Assembly (NCBI GenBank): GCA_002104985.1
Contig: MCGO01000009.1
Span: forward strand, 496,001-560,000
DNA: 64,000 nucleotides
Direction of reading: 5' to 3'
From: Rhizoclosmatium globosum
Lineage: Eukaryota; Chytridiomycota; Chytridiomycetes; Chytridiales; Chytriomycetaceae
Of this stretch, positions 53,701-64,000 are shown one piece after another (within the stretch, counting starts at the first letter, position 1; each line of letters starts with the position of its first letter). A program made the position numbers and the translations under genes. The notes beneath the pieces were generated by a model. It was not told where the DNA came from and did no database searches. It saw only the letters and a list, made by a program, of their open reading frames with translations.

Positions 53701-54084
53701 AATGGGGGGGCGACTGGAAGTGGTAGTGGGTTGGGAGTGATGACGACCCAGAGTTCGGGAACTGCTTCTGTGGCGGATTCGTCGCCCGCCAGTCCAGTTC
53801 TGAGTGAGGAATCTCGTCGCGCTGCACTTGTCAAGAGTCTTTTGGTCAAGATTGGTGGAGGCTCTGTTGGTGCAAGTGATGAAGATGATGGGTCTGCGAA
53901 CGCGACTGAGACTGCTGAAATCAATGATGATGAAGTTGACTGGAAGGCGTCGTTTGAGGCTGCCGTGTCTGAGTTGATGAAGGCGAAGCAGGTTTCTGTT
54001 ACCCAGAAGGCCGACTTTGAAAAGTTTCAAGCGTTGCACAAGAACTGTGGGTTCTTGCAGGGATTGTTGAACATTTGTGACTGA
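50779..54084 (+). CDS. Gln-rich RNA-binding protein with four RRM-like domains; apparent 1-nt frameshift
   Basis: Four exons: 50779-51134, 51246-51517, 51575-51664 and 51756-54084, about 1015 residues. RRM-like starts: TTIHVSNI, NPILFVSIFPCFGEAELLEIF, CTIHVTNLDKDIPTLLQFF and CLVRISDYPSTTTEEDLRLLL; each is followed by a strand such as DYVFVCF, HALVRF, DYAFVIF or SCLVQF. The remainder is Gln/Ser/Gly-rich, with several poly-Gln runs, and the C-terminus is acidic (DEDDGSANATETAEI). In exon 1 the frame breaks after IHVSNI: one base is missing in the T run at 51110-51112. One more base would restore LNRAQLRLHFREYEGF, which aligns with helix 1 of the third RRM and leads in phase to a good donor at 51135. 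Reading a GTTTGA donor at 51109 instead would delete that helix. It probably acts on mRNA; targets unknown. Confidence 0.75.
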
Positions 54085-55259
54085 GTTCCGGCCATCCCTT
54101 TCTGTTGGATTGATACGATGATGATGGTGGGAATCACTTTATTCTTTTTTTTTATCTTTTGTTTGTTGTGTCTTCAGTAGCTTAGAGAGAGCGGGTGGGA
54201 ATTGCTGGATAACCTTGAATATATGGAATGCCAATTGGGCACTACTTACTATTCTTTTCCCAAATTAAGACAATTAAACATGGTTTTTTTCTTTGCCAAA
54301 CTTAACCACAATATGCGATGGCTCATTCGCTCATTGCCAAACAGTACACTCTCGCATTTAAAGAACGCATTTAAAACAGAATACACAAATTGAGAAGAGT
54401 TCCTTGTTTGAAGAAGAGGAGAAAAAGTTCGGACACACAGTAAATTTCTATCGCCATTACCTTGATGCTGTATATCTTGTTCGATGTGATGCCTGATGCG
54501 CCTCAGGCGGAGAGTGGCTTCTGCGATGCACAGTAACCAAATGCGCCTCAGGCGAAACTTGTGTGTGTGTGTTGCAGTTGGCCCAATGGAGTCACATTGC
54601 GACTGAGAAATGCAGCATCCCAAGGTAGTTGGCGAGAGAAAACGTGGCAAGTAACATTGTTTATTGTCCTCCATCGTGCCCAGTACAGTCGGTAGGTCTA
54701 TCTTACCTCTTGACATGTCTTATCAACTAATATCTCGACACAGGTCACTGTCAGTCTGCCATGAACAATCCTTCCCAAATACTGCCTCCGCTCCATTCTC
54801 AGTTCTTTTGTAGCATTTGCAATCCATAAATTCCTCGTCCTCAGGAGTAGGTACACTCTTTGTCATAAGCAACCTTTCTTTAATCTATGCTATTACATTG
54901 CTTAGATTTGAAGTACATTACGCTGCAGCCTGTTTAAGCTATCGGAAAGAAGGGAGGAGAGCGATAAAGACTCTTTCTGCCGAAAGGGGTAATTCTAACT
55001 CCCATTTTCCTATCAACAACTCTGGTGAGTCGTCGCATTCTTGGATCCTCGCCTTTCTCTCCCCTTCAGTCCTCTTCCGTCTTTCCGTTGCTATGGATGC
55101 AACATATGAATGGAGTTCGAATGCTTTCAGAAGCGTATTCCTTAGACTGAATACAGTTTGGAAGTGAATGAGGGACCAATACGTACTGATTGCATTCCCT
55201 TCTTCATATATGAGCTCTCGTCCTTTCCTCCTTCATGTATCAACGATTAACAAAATACA
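54085..55259. other. 1.2-kb region without a confident gene, left flank of the Fanzor locus
   Basis: AT-rich and low in coding signal. It contains the 3' end of the RRM gene, two copies of a short palindrome (54499 and 54544), a short GT run (about 54561-54572) and presumably the promoter of the Fanzor gene. Open frames at 54716-54249 (minus) and 54817-55167 (plus) have no motifs or splice continuation and are not called. I see no obvious terminal inverted repeat matching the right flank. Confidence 0.5.
54499..54554. repeat. Two direct copies of the palindrome CGCCTCAGGCG
   Basis: The 14-mer ATGCGCCTCAGGCG occurs at 54496-54509 and 54541-54554, exactly 45 bp apart. Its core (54499-54509 and 54544-54554) is an 11-bp palindrome with a single central base. 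The first copy also forms a GCCTGA/TCAGGC hairpin with the bases before it. It is a possible dimeric zinc-cluster factor site or an element fragment. Confidence 0.7.
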
Positions 55260-58200
55260 ATGAACAGAAATGACAAGACTGCAGCATCCACCGCCTCCGC
55301 CCGAACCTCCTCCTCCAGTCGACGTGGTCAGTATTTTCTAGCTGCAATCTGTATAGCTGAGCTAAATGATTCTGTAGTCAAAAATCATGATACTATTCGC
55401 AGACCATTACACAGTGGAGGATCAACAACTCAACTGTTTGTCGTACTTTTCCATGGGTGGGGATCCACTTGCTACAGACAAAATCAACCACCTGTCTGCT
55501 GAACTCAGCCACTTGGAGTCACAGAATCCAAATAGTCCCAACGAGTACCTCGAGGCTGTTTCCACGTGTATTGGGTACAAAGTTCCATCAGCGTCACACA
55601 TCAAGAAAGTCTTTGATGCCGTAACTCTGGCGAAATCCTCCGGACTCCAAGTTTCTGGAGTTCATACTATGGCTCAGTGCTCTCTGGGTACTCTCTTTGG
55701 TTTCCATCAGGACTCGTTCACAGGTTCTTTCATTCACTCATCAATGCAAGCTGTTTGTGATGCCTCTGGGATATGCGTGTTGGAGTTGTCATTACCTAAT
55801 GGTCAGCCTGACCCAGAATATGCAGCAAAGGTAATTTTTTGTGTTTAGCTTGTTCCTGACAGATTTTTCATTGATTACTGACTGTTTCTTGGTTTAGTTT
55901 GATCTAGCAAAGAGAGACAAGTTGTATATGATTGTCGTCACCTCATCAGAGGCTGTTGGAGGTTGTAACAAGTCTCTCCATGCTGTGCAAAGTAATGCGT
56001 GCCAAAACATCTGCTCAGCTGACAAAGAGTTTACCCCTACTCTGAGCCATAATACTGCACGTAATCCGCAGCCTAAAATACCTTCCTATGTTCGTTTTGT
56101 CCCAAATCAGGATGGGCATCCTGCCTTCTATTGTCACAATAGTCACTTGTCCAGTTGGGAGCCTCCAGATTGTTATACTGTGTATTCTCCAGAACATGGA
56201 CATTGGTGGATTGCTTCTGGCGGAGGCGTGTCATGGGATACTGATGGATTTGTTTCTGGCACTGTCTTTCCTCCAGGTTTAGAAACTGGCCCATTTCCCT
56301 ACCCTCCTGCCTTTCCACCTGCACCTCCTTCAGAACAGACACCCTTTCTACAACCACCGCCTCTCCATCCTCCCATTCCATATTATATCAAACCCGCATC
56401 TGCTGCTTCTGGAACAAGGTTTAAGTTGGATCACCAAATCAACAGAGCCCAAACACTGGCTCTGACAAGTTTCTTGGAATATTCTGATGTTCAAATTGTT
56501 GGATCAATCGCTGCCGAGCATGCAAACGTGATGCCGTTTCTGTCTTCTGCTGGAGTTCAAAAGAGTCCGTTGTTTCCCAATGCAGCTGTTTACAGCCGTC
56601 TTCATCCTGCCAGTTTGACACATACTCTTGCTGGTTTCTTCCCTCCAAACTCAGCATTCTTGCCACAACTTCACCCACCGTCCCTAAACGATGGAAATCT
56701 GCCCAAGTACTTGAAGCAATTTACAGTCTCTCATCTGAAAGGACCATTGTATTCTGCACTGTGTCGGTTAATTGAGTTGGATGCTGAAAAAGTATTTGCT
56801 GTATTCAAAGACAACGCTGTGGGTCGTTGGTTTGTTGCTGGTTCAAGAACCATGAAATCAATGGAGAAAGATGCATTGGCCATGTCAAGATGTCTCTCTC
56901 AGGTTGTTAATGTGAACCCACCATTATCAGTCCCTGTTGAATCCAAGTTCAAGTACACCCCTCCACCTGTTTATGTCGCAACAGTCACAGCTGTTCAGAA
57001 TGGAAACTGTTTCTGTGGTGTTCGGGATCATGTCAAGACTACAAGCCGCAGTTGTTTGCTTCATTTTGACAACTATTCCAACCAGTGGATTCATCCTCTA
57101 CATCTGTGGCTTGAAGGTAAATTTCTTCCTTTCCTCAACCTTCCCTTAACTTTGTGACAGAATGGAAGGTTGCAAACCCCAACCATGTCCTTTCTCCATT
57201 TCTCTGTCGTGATGTAAATAGAAAGGAGAAACAGTTTCTTACAGCCATATCCTCCTCTGAATATAAGCAGTACTTGGAGCTTGTCCTTCAGCCCAAACTC
57301 GTTGAATGGAATGTTGCAGGAAAACCAACAGATGTTGAAGGAAAAGCTGCTACAGAGTTGTACGTCATCAAAATGCCATTAACAACAGTACTTCGTGATG
57401 CAACCTGGCTCCAGCCTCAAATTGAGATGCTTCTGCCTACGTGAGTGTCCACCTATCAGTATTCTTGTGATGTCTGAAGATATTGTGCAGGATAAACTTG
57501 ATTAGTACTATTGCGACCAAGTTTGGAACCAACGTTGGGTTACGAATGTATCATGAATCAAAAGCTGGGGAGCCAATGTTGCCGATAAATCAATCGTTCT
57601 TTATATCTGTCATCAAAACAGTTGCTACTAATGGAAAGAGCAAAACTTCTGGCCAGCACTCGAAACTGTGCCAATGGTGGATTGACTTCAAATCTGAAAC
57701 TGGTGTTCCACTGCTTCCACCATTGGATCATGTGTTGTTTAGTAATATGATTGTATATGCAGCTGAAAGGATGGCAACAGACTATCAGCGCCATATCACG
57801 GTATATATTGGTATCTTGTTTGAAAGCCTGTCCTAACTTTTGGTTACAGAAGGACTTGCACAATCACATGATCAACACCTTGTTCCAGCTATATCGAAAG
57901 TACATCCGTGACAACCATATTTCCTGCGATTTGACAGCACTTCGGAATGCCGCCCGCTTTGAGCTTCAACATCTGTTTGTGAACGACAAGAAACTCTTTG
58001 TTGAGCTTAGGAAAACTGCTGGCACTAGGGCGGCCTTGCCCAAGTTACCATTGCCATGGGTGTCTGTGGACAGAGTGTCTCCTGATCATCTGACCAAGTT
58101 GTTCACATTGGACATTGCAGAAGAATTGGCATGCAAGACATTGGCCTTCATCAAAGATCTGGAGGCTTGGTTTCCCAAACTGCTACCCCTGTGCAAAAGG

Positions 58201-61152
58201 ATGTTCAAATTCCATAAGCTGTCGTGAGTGATTTTCTATTTGCAAGTCTTTATTTAATACTAAGTTTGGCTATCAAGGTACTCCTCCGGACACTACTACC
58301 TCTTGGAGAGAAACCGCAGTCTTGAACCACAAAATATTCCCTCCACCAAGGAAGCTCCTTCTTTGAAAGCGCCAAAACCATTCCACATGAAAGGTGTGTA
58401 TTATTGTCAGCTCCTATTGTCACTGAACACTATAACACAGCTGCAGTGCGTGATGCTGTGTCCAAACCAATTTCTTTTTTGCAGATGTCAGTAATGGTTC
58501 CTGAATATTATAGAAGTGTTGATGCTGGTCTTGCCCACCCAGACCAAACTGATCCGCTGTATGGATTAAGATTCTTCAGACATCGTGGGATAGTTAAAGA
58601 AACTGATTCACTGGTTCGGTCCAAGCTACAGGCTTCTATCAATTCAGATATTGATAGAATCCAGCGTGGAGACTTTCGGATTGAGACATATGGAAGTCTG
58701 CCTCAAGGAGCAACTAAGGGCTGGAACGCCCACCCTCAGACCACATTCAAGGAGAAGTCTTTCCAATTAGATAGCACGTACGTATATGTATAGGGTTTTT
58801 TGTGTAAACTAACTGCTTGTATAAAGTGATCTGGCGATGATGACGTACAAGTATTTTCCCCGTGGCTCAGGATGGGATACTTTGTGTCTGAGTTTAAACC
58901 TGCCGACAGATTGTTTGCAATCTGACTTCAAGGTTGCTGGTATTCGGAAGCAGAGTATTTTGTGGGGAACTGTGTTGCCAGCTATTCGAAACGTTTTCAA
59001 GAAGGAAGAAATCGGTTCACAAGAGGATAAATCACAACCACGTCGATTTGGTGAGTTTCTTTTTAAACTTGTAAAACATTTGCTTACCCTCTGAAATAGG
59101 TGGGTCCATGATGGTAAACTCCATCTCAGTAAGTCTTCACTGTCTCCGCCCGAAGAAGAAAGCCTTGGATCCAAATCAGCCCATGCTGACCCCTGAGAAT
59201 CTCGTTCTACCTGCCGATTCTATAGTAATCAGTGGTGATCCTGGAGTCGTTACTCCAGTCATGTGGTACATGGCATTGAACCCGGGAAGTGCTCCTGGGC
59301 TTACACCAACCCAAGTGCCAAATATTTCAAGTAAATCCGGTTCCTATCACCAAGCAAATGAGAATAGGCGTAAAAAAGAAGTTGAAGTTGCGGAAGGATC
59401 ATATATGTACGTGTGCATTTCATTTGTCAACAAAGTCACTCATACTCTATAACAGCTATCATGCGCCAAAACTTCTTTCAGTACCTGAAGCTAATGCCAG
59501 AGTTGCAGTCATTGCAGCCAAGAAAAGGGCCAAAAAGAAAAGATACTTGAATAACCGGCGAAATCGTACGGCAGCTGAACAAAAAAAACTTGGAGAACAG
59601 ATTGGTGCTTACGCGTTTGAAAAGCTCTCCTGGGAGGAGCAGCTTAGTGGGCTATCGTTCAAGTTTGGACTTGCTGAATGGAAGGAGAAGACTCAGCAGA
59701 AATATGCTGAAATGCAACGTGTGAAGATCAGGGAAGTGTATGAAAAGGAGGCCAAGGTCAAGATCGACGCAGAGTTTGCAAAGTTGGCTGTTGCTTCCAG
59801 CAAGACTACGTCTGTTGCCGACTTCAACAAGTCCTCAAAGGTTTCTTTTGAAGTGTACCCGATACTCTATGAGCTCTATTGCCGTCAATCCCACCTACGA
59901 TTCTTGACGTATCAAGGAGAACAGCGAACTCTCAAGATCTTCATGTCGTACCTTCGTGGAAACTATCGGAGGGACCAAATTGTTCTTGCTATTGGGCACG
60001 CAGGCTATGGCGGAAATATGAAAGGAACAGTCTCTGGCCCAAGTCGGAAGCTCGTTCGGGAAGCCCAAAAGACGTTCACAACGGTCACTGTCAATGAAGG
60101 AAAGACGACATTTTGTTGTTCAGGTTGTCAAGGAACTGGAAAGTGCACTGATATTCTTGATTTGGGTCCTTCACCTGATGTCGTTTCAAAAGAGGAATTG
60201 GATTATATTCGGAACTTGATTATAGACCATGATATTGGCACATTGTTTGAAACTGGAGCGGATGGGAGAACAGTGAAGCACTGGGCTCGAATTGAGAAAG
60301 TGCTCCGACTACTTGGAGTCACTGATGAGGAGTTCGCTGATTTGGAGGACGAGGATATTGATCGTTATCTGAAACAAGTTGACACAAATGACGACGAAGA
60401 AGAAGATGTGGAAATCATGGAGCCAGAGGATTGCGAAGAAAGAGAACAAGAGAAGGAAATCGAAATGGAGGGGAATCTGGAGTCAAGCGACGAAGATGTA
60501 GCTGTTAACCAAGAGATTGACGACTTTCTCTTGGGATTGGATGGCATGAATATTGAGCCTGAGTTGTGGTACGGAGATTTTGGGGTTGAAGACAAGCTTG
60601 ATGACTTGATCCATGACTTGAGTGACTTAGAGGAGGATCGAATGGAAGTTGATTCATCGTTTGGTGGAGGCGATTGCGGTTTGATGGGCGATGGCAGTGA
60701 ACCTAATCCAATTGACAAAGTGTACAAAACAAATCCAGCACACTATTTTCTGCGGGAAGGGGTCGGTGACGTCGGTGCTGAAGGGCGAAAGAGGGAGTCT
60801 TTTACTCAGTCATATGTAACAACAACATCCAAGAACATCCTCAAACTGAAAAACAAAGCTTTTAGGGTGGGTTGGTTGGAGGAGTTTCCGCTGAGCGAGA
60901 GAGTGAGGAAGGCATTCCAGAATGGTGTTCCAGTTGGGAAACCACTTCGAGCTGTAAAGTATTGTCATAAGTGTGGTAATATTTGGGAGCGTGACAAGTG
61001 AGTTCACCTCTTGATATTATTCGTGCGGCTTACCTAATTGTATTTGAAGGAATGCTGCTAGAAATATCTGGACTCTGTTTTGGTATCTGCGTTTCAACAA
61101 AATGAAACGTCCGTTTCCGTTTCAAGTCACCAGAAGGAAGAAAGATGAATGA
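55260..61152 (+). CDS. Fanzor-type (eukaryotic TnpB-like, OMEGA) RNA-guided nuclease, long form
   Basis: Twelve exons join in phase to an intact 1768-residue protein: 55260-55326, 55403-55830, 55898-57116, 57161-57440, 57491-57800, 57850-58223, 58278-58393, 58441-58777, 58827-59050, 59100-59406, 59456-60997, 61050-61152. The C-terminal third has the split RuvC layout of TnpB/Fanzor: VISGDPGVVTPVM (RuvC-I Asp ~1165); VLAIGHAGYGGNMKG with Pro-x-x-x-Leu after it; VTVNEGKTTFCCSGC (candidate catalytic Glu ~1435 next to a CC-x-x-C cluster); and the terminal ribbon YCHKCGNIWERDKNAARNI (RuvC-III Asp ~1734), the best family marker. An acidic insert of ~200 residues separates the last two. The ~1100-residue N-terminus is unique; VYVATVTAVQNG to HFDNYSNQWIHPLHLW resembles a Tudor-like barrel. 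Fanzor proteins cut DNA using an RNA made from the locus. Exon 1 is the least certain; 55387 is an alternative start. Not recognised with certainty is how far this belongs to Fanzor1. Confidence 0.8.
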
Positions 61153-61393
61153 ATGATGAAAGAATTATGTGAATTATGCAACCGGAGCTGCGTGGGTCGT
61201 TAGAAAACCACGTGGGTCCTATTACTGTTTTCAAAGAAGGAGAGGAGGTTATGGGCTGGAGGGAAGAGGGGTTCTTTTTCTCTTTAAGTGTCTTATTTTC
61301 TGAGAAATACAGTAGCAGTGGTTTGTGATATATTTGTGGATCCATTTCCAACCAAACACCAAAACACCCCTCACACACTCACGCAAAAGTTTG
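61153..61393 (+). other. 3' flank of the Fanzor gene, candidate guide-RNA (omega-RNA) region
   Basis: 240 bp between the Fanzor stop and the CUL3 start. In known OMEGA systems the guide RNA overlaps or follows the 3' end of the nuclease ORF. Here the sequence has a repeated GCGTGGGTC / CACGTGGGTCC pair (about 61190-61218) and a purine-rich block (61234-61276) that could fold with the following T/C-rich stretch. It also holds the CUL3 promoter. No RNA can be called from sequence alone. Confidence 0.3.
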
Positions 61394-64000
61394 ATGCAAG
61401 GAACCTCTTCAGTTCGACGTGGAGCCAAAGTAGGCGGCAAGAGCATCCGGCCCGTACGAAAGGTTAGTAGTGTTTTCAAGCGGGGGAGGGTGCCAAAGCA
61501 AGGCCTTACTGACTGGTGGTTGTTTGTGGCAATCGCAGCCGGACAAGAGCTTTGAGGATTCGTGGCAGACCCTCGCAGATGCAATGCAGCACATCCACGA
61601 ACGCCGGGCATCGACACTGAGCTTTGAAGAACTGTACCGGTGCGTTGCGTTGCGTTGCGTTGTTACTTGGGGTTGGTTTACTAAGACTACCAAACCAATC
61701 CACCCACCACCTGAATTCACTCTAGAAACGCGTACAATCTTGTTCTTGCAAAGTCTGGCGACAGACTCTTTTCGGGTGTCGAGGGTGTTCTGCGGTCGCA
61801 TTTGGAGGCAGCAGCTCGTGACGTTGCCGCTGCCTTTCCCTCTTCAACAGCTGCAACTGCTCCAAACAATAACAATAGCAACAATAACAACAATGCCGAT
61901 TCTCAGAATCTGCTCGTGCTCGCGGGTCTTCCCGACAATGCCGTCCTCACAAACGCTGCTGCTTTTACTGCAACTCTGCGTCGCGTGTGGGATGCGCATA
62001 CAACAAAGATGGTTATGATCAGAGATATTCTGCTCTATATGGACAAGGTCTATGTCAAGACGGCAAACAAACCTATGATATACGATCTTGGCCTTGACTT
62101 GTTCCGTGATACTGTCCTACATTGCCCAACCCTCCCCATTCGTCAAAAGACAGTCGAAACTTTAATGTATCTAATTCTACTGGAACGGCAAGGCGAGATT
62201 ATCGATAGAAGCTCCATCAAAACTATCACAAACATGTTCTTGTCCCTGAATAACGTGAATGGTATGTAATCAATGGGACCCTAAAGCCTAGGAAACAGCA
62301 ATTGTGGAAACATATGTTGGATGAATCGGAAATCCGATGGAGTCAGCCTTGCTTGAGGGGAGAATCTGTTGCTAAAATGTACACACAACCTTGCAATCCA
62401 GCAATCGCCCAAGGAACCATGACAACTTCATCTATCTCCATTTACGAACAAGACTTTGAACGCTATTTCCTTGCCACATCTCGCGAATTCTACCGCCTCG
62501 AAGCTGCGCACCTCCTGGAAACCTGCGACGCAAAGACTTTCTTGAGTCGAGTGGCAGAACGAATTTCGGAAGAAGATCAACGTGTTGTTGCATATCTAAG
62601 TCCCGACACTGGTCCCAAACTCCAAAAGATTTTAGAAAATGTCCTGATTCAGCAGAATGTTACATCTGTTATCGAGGTACTTTCTTTTCAACGAGTCATT
62701 ATTTTAAACAACTAAAAATATGGAACAAATCATAGATGGAAAACTCGGGTCTCGTTGTGATGCTTACAAATAACACAACCGACGACTTGTCCCGCATGTA
62801 TCGTCTCTTTGAACGTGTCGAAAATGGCCACCATTCAATGCGCGATTGTATCTCCAAAGAAATCCAGCGACTTGGAAAATCAGTCAACGAGCTGTATGGT
62901 GGTACAACAACTACTTCTGCAGCAGGACAACACGGACGTCTCTCTTCCACTACATCAGTACCCTCCGCTCCAGAATCTTCATCCTCCACCGGTCCTGCCC
63001 CTCCCAATCCTGTGAAATGGGTGGAAGCGCTCCTAGAAATCAAGGGTCGATTTGACGCGCTTGTTGTAAATGCATTTGTAAAGAACAAGAGCTTCGTGAA
63101 TACTGTCAACGACGCTATGGGTCTTGTTGTGAATGCGAATCCGAAAGCTAGCGAGTATTTGAGTTTGTTTATTGATGAGAATCTGAAGAAGGGACAGAAA
63201 GGGGTACGTGGTTTCTTGGTGATTAGTATTCTGGTAACTAGTGTATTAACTTTCTTTTGGTTCGTTATTGTTGTTATAGAAAGATGAAAAGGATGTGGAT
63301 GCTGTGTTGGATAGCACTGTAATGTTGTTCAGGCTACTTGATCAAAAAGATGTCTTTGAGCGATATTATAAGTCGCATTTGGCGAAGCGATTACTCTATG
63401 GACGAAGTATAAGTGAGGATACAGAAAGGGCGTTTATTGGGAAGTTGAAGGTGCGTCTTTCACGCATCTGTTTCCCGGTTCAACTCAGACTTTTTTCTTT
63501 TAGATTGAATGCGGTTCTCAATTTACATCCAAACTGGAAGGAATGTTTGTGGATATGAAGGTTTCCGACGATATGATGGTACAATTCAGAAACCAGCCAA
63601 ACACTTCATCATCAACCGACGAAGCCATTGATTTATCCATCAAAGTCCTCACCGTTACTTTCTGGCCTTCTTTCCCAATTCACACACTCAACTACCCAGC
63701 CAACCTAATCGCTCCAATTCAACGTTTCGAACGCTACTACCTCCAAAAACGACACACAGGCCGTAGATTAACCTGGCTCCACAGCATGGGAAACGCCGAC
63801 CTCCGCGCAAACCTCCCCAAAGGCAAAAAAGAAGTCAACATGAACGTCTTTGCCATGATTGTCCTCCTCACATGTTTCAACGACGGCACGGCCGCGGACG
63901 ATGGCACACCAGTCACATACACCAAGATCCTCGAAGCAACAGGAATCCCTGAACCTGAACTCAAAAAGACGTTGCAGAGTCTGAGTCTTGGGAAGCATCG
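61394..64000 (+). CDS. CUL3: Cullin-3-like E3 ubiquitin ligase scaffold, 3' end beyond the window
   Basis: Seven exons are visible (61394-61462, 61539-61639, 61726-62261, 62402-62676, 62736-63203, 63280-63450, 63504 to the edge). Cullin landmarks: RRASTLSFEELYRNAYNLVL, YEQDFERYFLATSREFYR, VIEMENSGLVVMLTN, ASEYLSLFIDENLKKG, LLDQKDVFERYYKSHLAKRLL, ECGSQFTSKLEGMF, and LTWLHSMGNADLRA. MENSGL and SEYLSLFID point to CUL3 rather than CUL1 or CUL4. CUL3 binds BTB proteins through its N-terminus and RBX1 through its C-terminus to ubiquitinate targets. A low-complexity Asn-rich insert sits near 61860-61895, and a Ser/Thr-rich insert near 62900-63010. For exon 4 an acceptor at 62416 is also in frame. 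The C-terminal winged-helix and neddylation site lie outside the window. Confidence 0.92.

Follow-up and report, generated by a model that had tools for sequence, protein, structure and literature searches.

A recently mobile element of Rhizoclosmatium globosum with a giant Fanzor-like protein and an RNA-like right end

Is the long, intron-rich gene found in a 64,000-nucleotide stretch of the chytrid Rhizoclosmatium globosum (contig MCGO01000009.1, positions 496,001 to 560,000; hereafter the window) a resident host gene or part of a mobile element, and what would its protein do there? Analysis of the window and of the genome around it (57 Mb, 420 contigs) showed that the gene belongs to a real and recently mobile element, called here family A, with a giant Fanzor-like protein and an RNA-like end of its own (Table 1). 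The reading that we favour, with a probability of about 0.72, is that of a Fanzor-like RNA-guided nuclease carried, together with the scaffold of its guide RNA, by a recently mobile, TA-inserting and probably pogo-type cargo transposon. The observations behind it are the copies and their ends, the single TA in empty sites (chiefly those of short relatives) and the intact coding, to which purifying selection, a covarying RNA-like fold and a one-sided TTA bias are added.

A DNA search of the genome detected six copies of the element at 99-100% identity, the window's included, which share their end points and differ in their flanks. The reading frame is open in five of the six and broken in the sixth (contig C334, L012), the mapped introns show GT..AG in all six (checked with the exon 1 of an earlier note on this DNA, corrected below), and the long copy on C223 is without around 20 bp at the left end. 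The inverted ends match at 18 of 25 positions, one base of the TA counted, a value equalled by none of 20,000 shuffles. The TA found on both sides may represent a duplication of the target or the insertion, after a TA, of an element that itself ends in TA, the sequence outcome being identical. The earlier note left two options, an active gene or a domesticated one. Domestication as a single gene of the host, with a host gene on either side, would agree with the intact frame and the purifying selection described below, but it is already contradicted by the six near-identical copies, the TA on both sides, the inverted ends and the RNA-like 3' end, and it is ruled out by the differing flanks of those six copies, in such a way that we assign it a negligible probability; mobility, by contrast, was borne out. 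The gene is thus the cargo of a recently mobile transposon and not a domesticated gene, and the functional unit, at 54249-61312, is wider than the 55260-61152 described in the earlier note.

The genome also contains 16 copies of a short element of around 565 bp, 93-100% identical to the copy used as query, which resemble family A only at the ends; those on C24 and C103 are a single duplicated locus. Their inverted ends match at 17 of 25 positions, as was found in one of 20,000 shuffles. The joined flanks of 21 insertions (6 long and 15 short) were used to search for empty sites, and 40 of the 52 candidates were scored, so the counts are lower bounds: at least 13 pre-insertion loci (L073-L085) span the junctions of at least 11 of the 21 insertions at 88-98% identity, values suggesting that diverged alleles or duplicates were assembled into contigs of their own. 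Ten of the 13 loci join flush at one TA; in L081 the one TA present is preceded by a changed base, and L080 and L085 are diverged at the site. Since no scored empty site other than L085 corresponds to a long copy, the TA duplication of the long element rests on its own ends and on the short relatives.

Spliced from the window DNA, the gene consists of 12 exons and 11 GT..AG introns in a single open frame. Its product is the annotated "hypothetical protein" BCR33DRAFT_713864 (P0001; 1,773 aa), which the annotated model, rebuilt from the window, reproduces letter for letter. The earlier note had described an intact gene of twelve exons in one frame; the absence of stops, the exon count, the introns and the frame hold, and five of the six near-identical copies are likewise open, but its exon 1 (start at 55260, intron 55327-55402) is out of frame. 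The annotated exon 1 starts at 55270 and is followed by an intron at 55327-55377, with exon 2 from 55378, and it was adopted because the rebuilt model equals P0001 and because a comparable first exon, MSVNQHPPPPPEPPP, was seen by eye in the DNA of the diverged copy on C1. Residues are numbered on the corrected protein of 1,773 aa, which adds 5 to the earlier numbers (D1170, E1440 and D1739).

The TnpB/Fanzor-type C-terminus recognised in the earlier note is supported by three motifs: D1170-P-G, E1440-x6-C1447xxC1450 and C1729xxC1732-G-x4-R-D1739-x-NAARNI, the last of them reading CHKCG..RDKNAARNI. With the spacers left free, neither the full signature nor its C-terminal half was found in 20,000 shuffles of P0001; E-x6-CxxC alone appeared in 684 of 20,000 and is weak by itself. 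In the excerpts of the published work on which this and the other comparisons below draw, DPG and a Glu six residues ahead of the zinc finger are given as Fanzor traits (PMC10711439), and these Fanzor1 features, at RuvC-I and RuvC-II respectively, are present in family A (D1170-G1172 for the former) and in the C1 copy, which reads MDPG. Compared with the published Fanzor motif D-X(125,275)-[TS][TS]-XX-[C4 finger]-X(5,50)-RD (PMC3627910), the protein has 272 residues from D to TT and 5 from the last C to RD, both within the limits, and its CxxC pairs lie 278 apart. An acidic insert (28% D/E over residues 1475-1700) exists as claimed before, but it is placed between the zinc-finger halves (within 1451-1728). 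Profile searches returned only TNB and guided_TnpB, in both cases over around 20 residues of the C-terminal motif, and no other transposase family, in agreement with the earlier assignment although both scores lie below their cut-offs. Apart from the weak TNB match, no Pfam match was obtained for P0001 at E<=1, so the chromatin-reader-like N-terminal modules that had been proposed are unsupported. The N-terminal 650 residues or so contain no known Pfam domain, their best match in PHROGs had an E of 0.15, and a scan of viral contigs with exon 11 returned no viral relatives.

Selection was examined between family A and the C1 copy (family B). Excluding exon 1, which the C1 alignment misplaces, and exon 7, which has a frame break in C1, the rates of synonymous (dS) and nonsynonymous (dN) change were 0.85 and 0.17, with a dN/dS of 0.21, and the ratio was practically the same in exons 2-6 (N-terminal part, 0.21) and exons 8-12 (C-terminal part, 0.20). 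The protein is under purifying selection in both parts alike. The wide range of dS by exon, from 0.25 to 2.2 over exons 2-12, suggests that the copies have exchanged sequence.

A third family, C, was detected in the genome by a protein search, with pieces on C256, C89, C63, C179 and C413 that are 33-46% identical. Spliced from C89, it aligns end-to-end with P0001, the N-terminal part and the acidic insert included, with 619 of 1,700 aligned residues identical (36.4%), and on this full-length alignment the giant architecture is older than the split between A and C. Introns 2-10 (nine) of family C are found at positions matching those of A, and intron 11 is absent; the splice sites were chosen with A as a guide, in such a way that their positions are not independent evidence, whereas the occurrence of the pieces in different frames is. 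The TNB match of family C reached 21.9 bits (E 2e-4; 26.3 needed). D1170, E1440 and D1739 are retained in A, B and C, and this bears on a rival reading, according to which the protein would be a Fanzor-derived, RNA-guided DNA-binding regulator that does not cut and whose acidic and N-terminal parts act on transcription. The composition of the acidic insert, the long extra N-terminus and the altered DPG and zinc finger of family C would suit such a regulator, but the conservation of the three catalytic acids under purifying selection and the recent mobility of the copies make it improbable. As a separate observation, C89:28946-37199 corresponds to a family C element of around 8.25 kb with inverted ends matching at 20 of 23 positions by eye; the loci of the family are L086-L089 and L093-L101.

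The right end of the element was studied as a putative RNA. Its last 130-135 bp or so are common to A, B and the 16 short elements at 72-75% identity, and folding gave a z-score of -3.5 for A (matched by 0 of 200 shuffles), of -3.7 for B (1 of 200) and of -4.7 for the short elements (0 of 200). In an unfitted alignment of 12 sequences the hairpin was paired in 97.8% of 136 cells, one pair was changed on both sides, and three measures beat 500 of 500 shuffles. A covariance model built from A, B and the short elements recovered family C, immediately downstream of the stop codon, in three of four loci (L086, L087 and L088; 66 bits, E 4e-13 to 5e-13), the fourth, L089, ending before that point. 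When family C was added, in an alignment of 15 sequences that is fitted to the covariance model and leans to it, 97.8% of 273 cells were paired, double changes were found in 4 of 20 pairs (for one of the four, in just one sequence), GU, CG and UA states were all seen at one pair, and no shuffle of 500 equalled the paired cells, the double-change cells or the covariation score. A pattern for the hairpin, drawn from these same families, was found at 29 places genome-wide (1 in the reversed control), all of them at known element or remnant ends (6 of A, 2 of B, 5 of C and 16 short). Rfam gave nothing at gathering score within 53900-61500. These data support that the right end, as is characteristic of Fanzor1 elements, has a conserved RNA-like fold, probably part of the guide of the nuclease. 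One G-U pair is present in 14 of the 14 sequences with letters at that place, and G-U appears at other places too, which suits RNA and not DNA.

This last point concerns a second rival, in which the giant protein would be a new kind of transposase and the conserved 3' segment the DNA that it binds. No transposase is separately encoded in the element, the ends are conserved, the N-terminal residues without known domains could hide one, and an asymmetric type could explain the target bias described below. Apart from the G-U pairs, however, the C-terminal signature is TnpB/Fanzor-like and pogo-type genes are associated with the family, so that we consider this reading unlikely, though somewhat less so than the non-cutting regulator. 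The association consists of the remnant and the 5' region of Table 1, of a family C gene that lies inside the left end and upstream of the nuclease gene, with an HTH_Tnp_Tc5 score of 22.5 bits, just over the cut-off of 22.2, and of an open pogo-type transposase frame of 479 codons (L042, C334:281035-282471; DDE_1 E 8e-22), at whose locus the left end did not show the end of the family A element. Elements of the pogo and Tc5 types target TA or TNA. Of their traits, the TA site and the inverted ends are present in family A, and DDE_1 in the related locus only. The link is no more than suggestive, and on it we propose that a pogo-type enzyme mobilises the element in trans.

The flanks were compared in 20 insertions (5 long and 15 short), leaving out the long copy on C223, which is truncated, and the C24 locus, which is a duplicate. 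The left flank reads TTA in 18 of 20 and TTTA in 14 of 20, whereas on the right flank the TA is followed by A in 4 and by AA in only 1 (Fisher p 1.7e-5 and 3.9e-5, respectively); across these flanks, a TA has T before it in 39% and TT in 17%. All five long copies have TTA, as do 13 of the 15 short ones. Outside these 20, the two TA-bearing left ends of family C that were inspected show TTA in one case and ATA in the other, and C63 is diverged there. The left-only TTA/TTTA is a bias in sequence rather than a requirement for cutting, and a candidate target-adjacent motif (TAM). A symmetric TA-inserting transposase alone would not yield such a bias, and a nuclease needing a motif on the left side would; an asymmetric transposase is also a possible source.

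If the protein is a Fanzor-like RNA-guided nuclease, we infer a cycle as follows. The element would insert at TA, leaving a TA on each side, and a transcript running through the right end would produce an RNA in which the conserved fold precedes a guide taken from the host sequence; with the right TA built into the RNA scaffold, the guide would begin after the TA. The nuclease and its RNA would cut DNA in which a TTA, in many cases a TTTA, adjoins the sequence matched by the guide. Such a target would be the site emptied by excision or a sister allele that lacks the element, and the element would be copied back during repair. Expression, RNA-guided cutting, the pogo transposase acting in trans and the copying back are the inferred steps of this cycle. 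A model of excision followed by copying back exists for TnpB.

Several results weigh against the nuclease reading. Regarding the protein, its spacings are stretched, with DPG and E 267 residues apart and the two CxxC 278 apart, where the published pattern for Fanzor-like TnpBs has 120-160 and 12-18 (PMC10711439). P0001 scored 17.4 bits for TNB (PF07282, Pfam; cut-off 26.3) and 13.4 bits for guided_TnpB (NF040570, NCBIfam; cut-off 100). As the scores are below cut-off and the spacings stretched, the protein is Fanzor-like and not a proven Fanzor member. Among its PDB matches a Fanzor or TnpB chain is absent, and two AlphaFold models, with a mean confidence (pLDDT) of 41.8 and 32.0, are unusable for the RuvC fold and for the convergence of D1170, E1440 and D1739 in it. 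A set of 5.8 billion proteins returned P0001 alone, with relatives from outside this genome not found; as the search covered proteins sharing 5-residue words, with a length of 0.55-1.75 times that of the query, and in part the top word-sharers only, absence elsewhere is not shown. Family C has DKG for DPG and has lost the first CxxC, with the Glu kept, and the comparison of the A profile with that of family D, a further Fanzor-like family described below, was not significant (E 0.058, probability 0.9%). The family A element encodes no transposase. In the RNA-like end, two measures on the unfitted alignment did not beat the shuffles (500/500), and on the 15-sequence alignment, with the leaning mentioned, the pairs with double change and the pair types gave 18 and 207 of 500 shuffles. 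Finally, TTTA belongs chiefly to the short elements (12 of 15) and is found in only 2 of 5 long copies, CTTA being present in the window, which slightly lowered the probability given above; and of the 13 scored empty loci, three have TTTA and a perfect match to the 20-nt guide, and seven have up to two guide mismatches, and all of them are still empty.

Fanzor1 proteins are mostly of 600-700 residues (PMC11423790), some reaching around 800 (PMC10711439), so the statement that this one has more than twice the usual size is correct. The N-terminal extension of around 1100 residues previously claimed is long indeed, but that figure overcounts, because other Fanzors also have sequence ahead of the first catalytic Asp; that of SpuFz1 is D383 (PMC10432273, PMC11423790), and the excess is of around 790 residues. 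SpuFz1, compared here by its description, also differs by lacking the 278 residues between the zinc-finger halves. Its element SPu-1, from the chytrid Spizellomyces punctatus, shares with family A the putative TA duplications and inverted ends (PMC3627910, PMC10432273), the nuclease as the sole encoded protein, the D-E-D residues and a motif to the left of the target, which is CATA in SPu-1 and the candidate TTA/TTTA here. Whereas the SPu-1 protein has 633 aa in one open frame, that of the window has 1,773 aa in 12 exons, and the guide RNA that SPu-1 produces from its right end is here a prediction. PpFz1 has an insert of around 100 residues in RuvC (PMC11423790); the window protein likewise has one in the catalytic region, but larger, acidic and separating the halves of the zinc finger. 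Mariner-type Fanzor1 elements, some of them Fanzor-only (PMC3627910), resemble family A in their TA sites, Fanzor cargo and a sometimes absent transposase, and differ from it in the association with pogo/Tc5-like genes found here. IS607 TnpB and the SfAV Fanzor recode fixed flanking bases into the RNA scaffold (PMC10711439), as predicted here for the right TA.

A broader proposal, tentative and to our judgement somewhat short of an even chance, is that these families form a giant lineage of RNA-guided nucleases of around 1,800 residues, in two or more families at 36% identity, with a zinc finger split by the acidic insert, a new N-terminal module of around 650 residues and a pogo-type transposon with the TA in the guide scaffold, and that the 565-bp elements, sharing only RNA and ends, could borrow the nuclease as guide-RNA-only parasites. 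If so, the short elements could secure their own sites by a borrowed nuclease, and the giant form would extend the known size and shape of RNA-guided DNA cutters in complex cells. The existence of a 1,773-residue form that selection maintains, and of another full-length family beside it, raises the question of the role of the extra half; others are whether the nuclease is the source of the one-sided bias and whether the RNA-only elements depend on it. As this one genome combines many recent copies, RNA-only relatives and insertion sites in both the filled and the empty state, the role of Fanzors for eukaryotic transposons becomes directly testable. A survey of Fanzors reportedly appeared in Science Advances in 2023, and we do not claim the giant family as unlisted.

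Table 1. Features of the family A element in the window, and contigs carrying the short elements.
Feature	Position	Strand	Remarks
Whole family A element, 7,064 bp	54249..61312	+	ends CTATTCTTTTCCC...GAGAAATACAG, imperfect inverted
Left TA, target-site copy	54247..54248	.	window copy CTTA here, other copies mostly TTTA
Remnant, 18 codons	54318..54374	+	MAHSLIAKQYTLAFKERI* resembles MADPLIRKQYTLAFKVCI, start of family C upstream gene; 81% DNA identity, 54 bp, E 1e-10
5' region	54400..55185	+	89% identical to DNA after pogo-type (DDE_1) transposase frame on C334
Exon 1	55270..55326	+	corrected frame, MTRLQHPPPPPEPPPPVDV
Exon 2	55378..55830	+	start corrected
Exon 3	55898..57116	+	annotated model
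Exon 4	57161..57440	+	annotated model
Exon 5	57491..57800	+	annotated model
Exon 6	57850..58223	+	annotated model
Exon 7	58278..58393	+	annotated model
Exon 8	58441..58777	+	annotated model
Exon 9	58827..59050	+	annotated model
Exon 10	59100..59406	+	holds DPG; D1170 codon 59237-59239
Exon 11	59456..60997	+	E1440 60096-60098; CSGC 60117-60128; CHKCG from 60963; D1739 60993-60995
Acidic insert (residues 1475-1700)	60201-60878	+	within exon 11
Exon 12 and stop	61050..61152	+	annotated model
Putative omegaRNA (reRNA) scaffold	61178..61314	+	UACUG 61223-61227 would pair with CAGUA 61310-61314, right TA included
12-bp apical hairpin, omegaRNA-like	61184..61219	+	near-invariant loop GTCGTTWGAMAA
Right TA, target-site copy	61313..61314	.	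within predicted closing helix
Predicted guide, host DNA	61315..61334	+	abuts right end, varies between copies
Short-element contigs	C13, C14, C24, C57, C103, C141, C148, C150, C208, C223 (two), C290, C366, C375, C401, C416		loci L032-L036, L056-L066

Family D includes loci L090-L092, three on C201, C223:518164, C399 and C89:41717. In the two members inspected, 44% identical, the motifs DIG, E-x6-CxxC and GRDxDAxDI were found, with TNB below cut-off, and an HTH-like (helix-turn-helix) reading frame lies just downstream of L092.

A partner with perfect inverted ends was also looked for. The 13-base end pattern is found at 29 places (0 in the control), six of them outside known copies, and these six were rejected, one being a 33-bp end fragment and the other five sharing only the pattern with the long or the short element. 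At L072 (C410:617402-617434) there is a lone piece of 33 bp, 97% identical to the right end of the element, around 60 kb off and with no element attached. Finally, positions 54459-54630 of the window (around 172 bp) are also present, at 86-87% identity, at 10 places that are distributed over C190, C40 and C283 and belong to long duplicated units whose self-matches are stepped by 70 bp.

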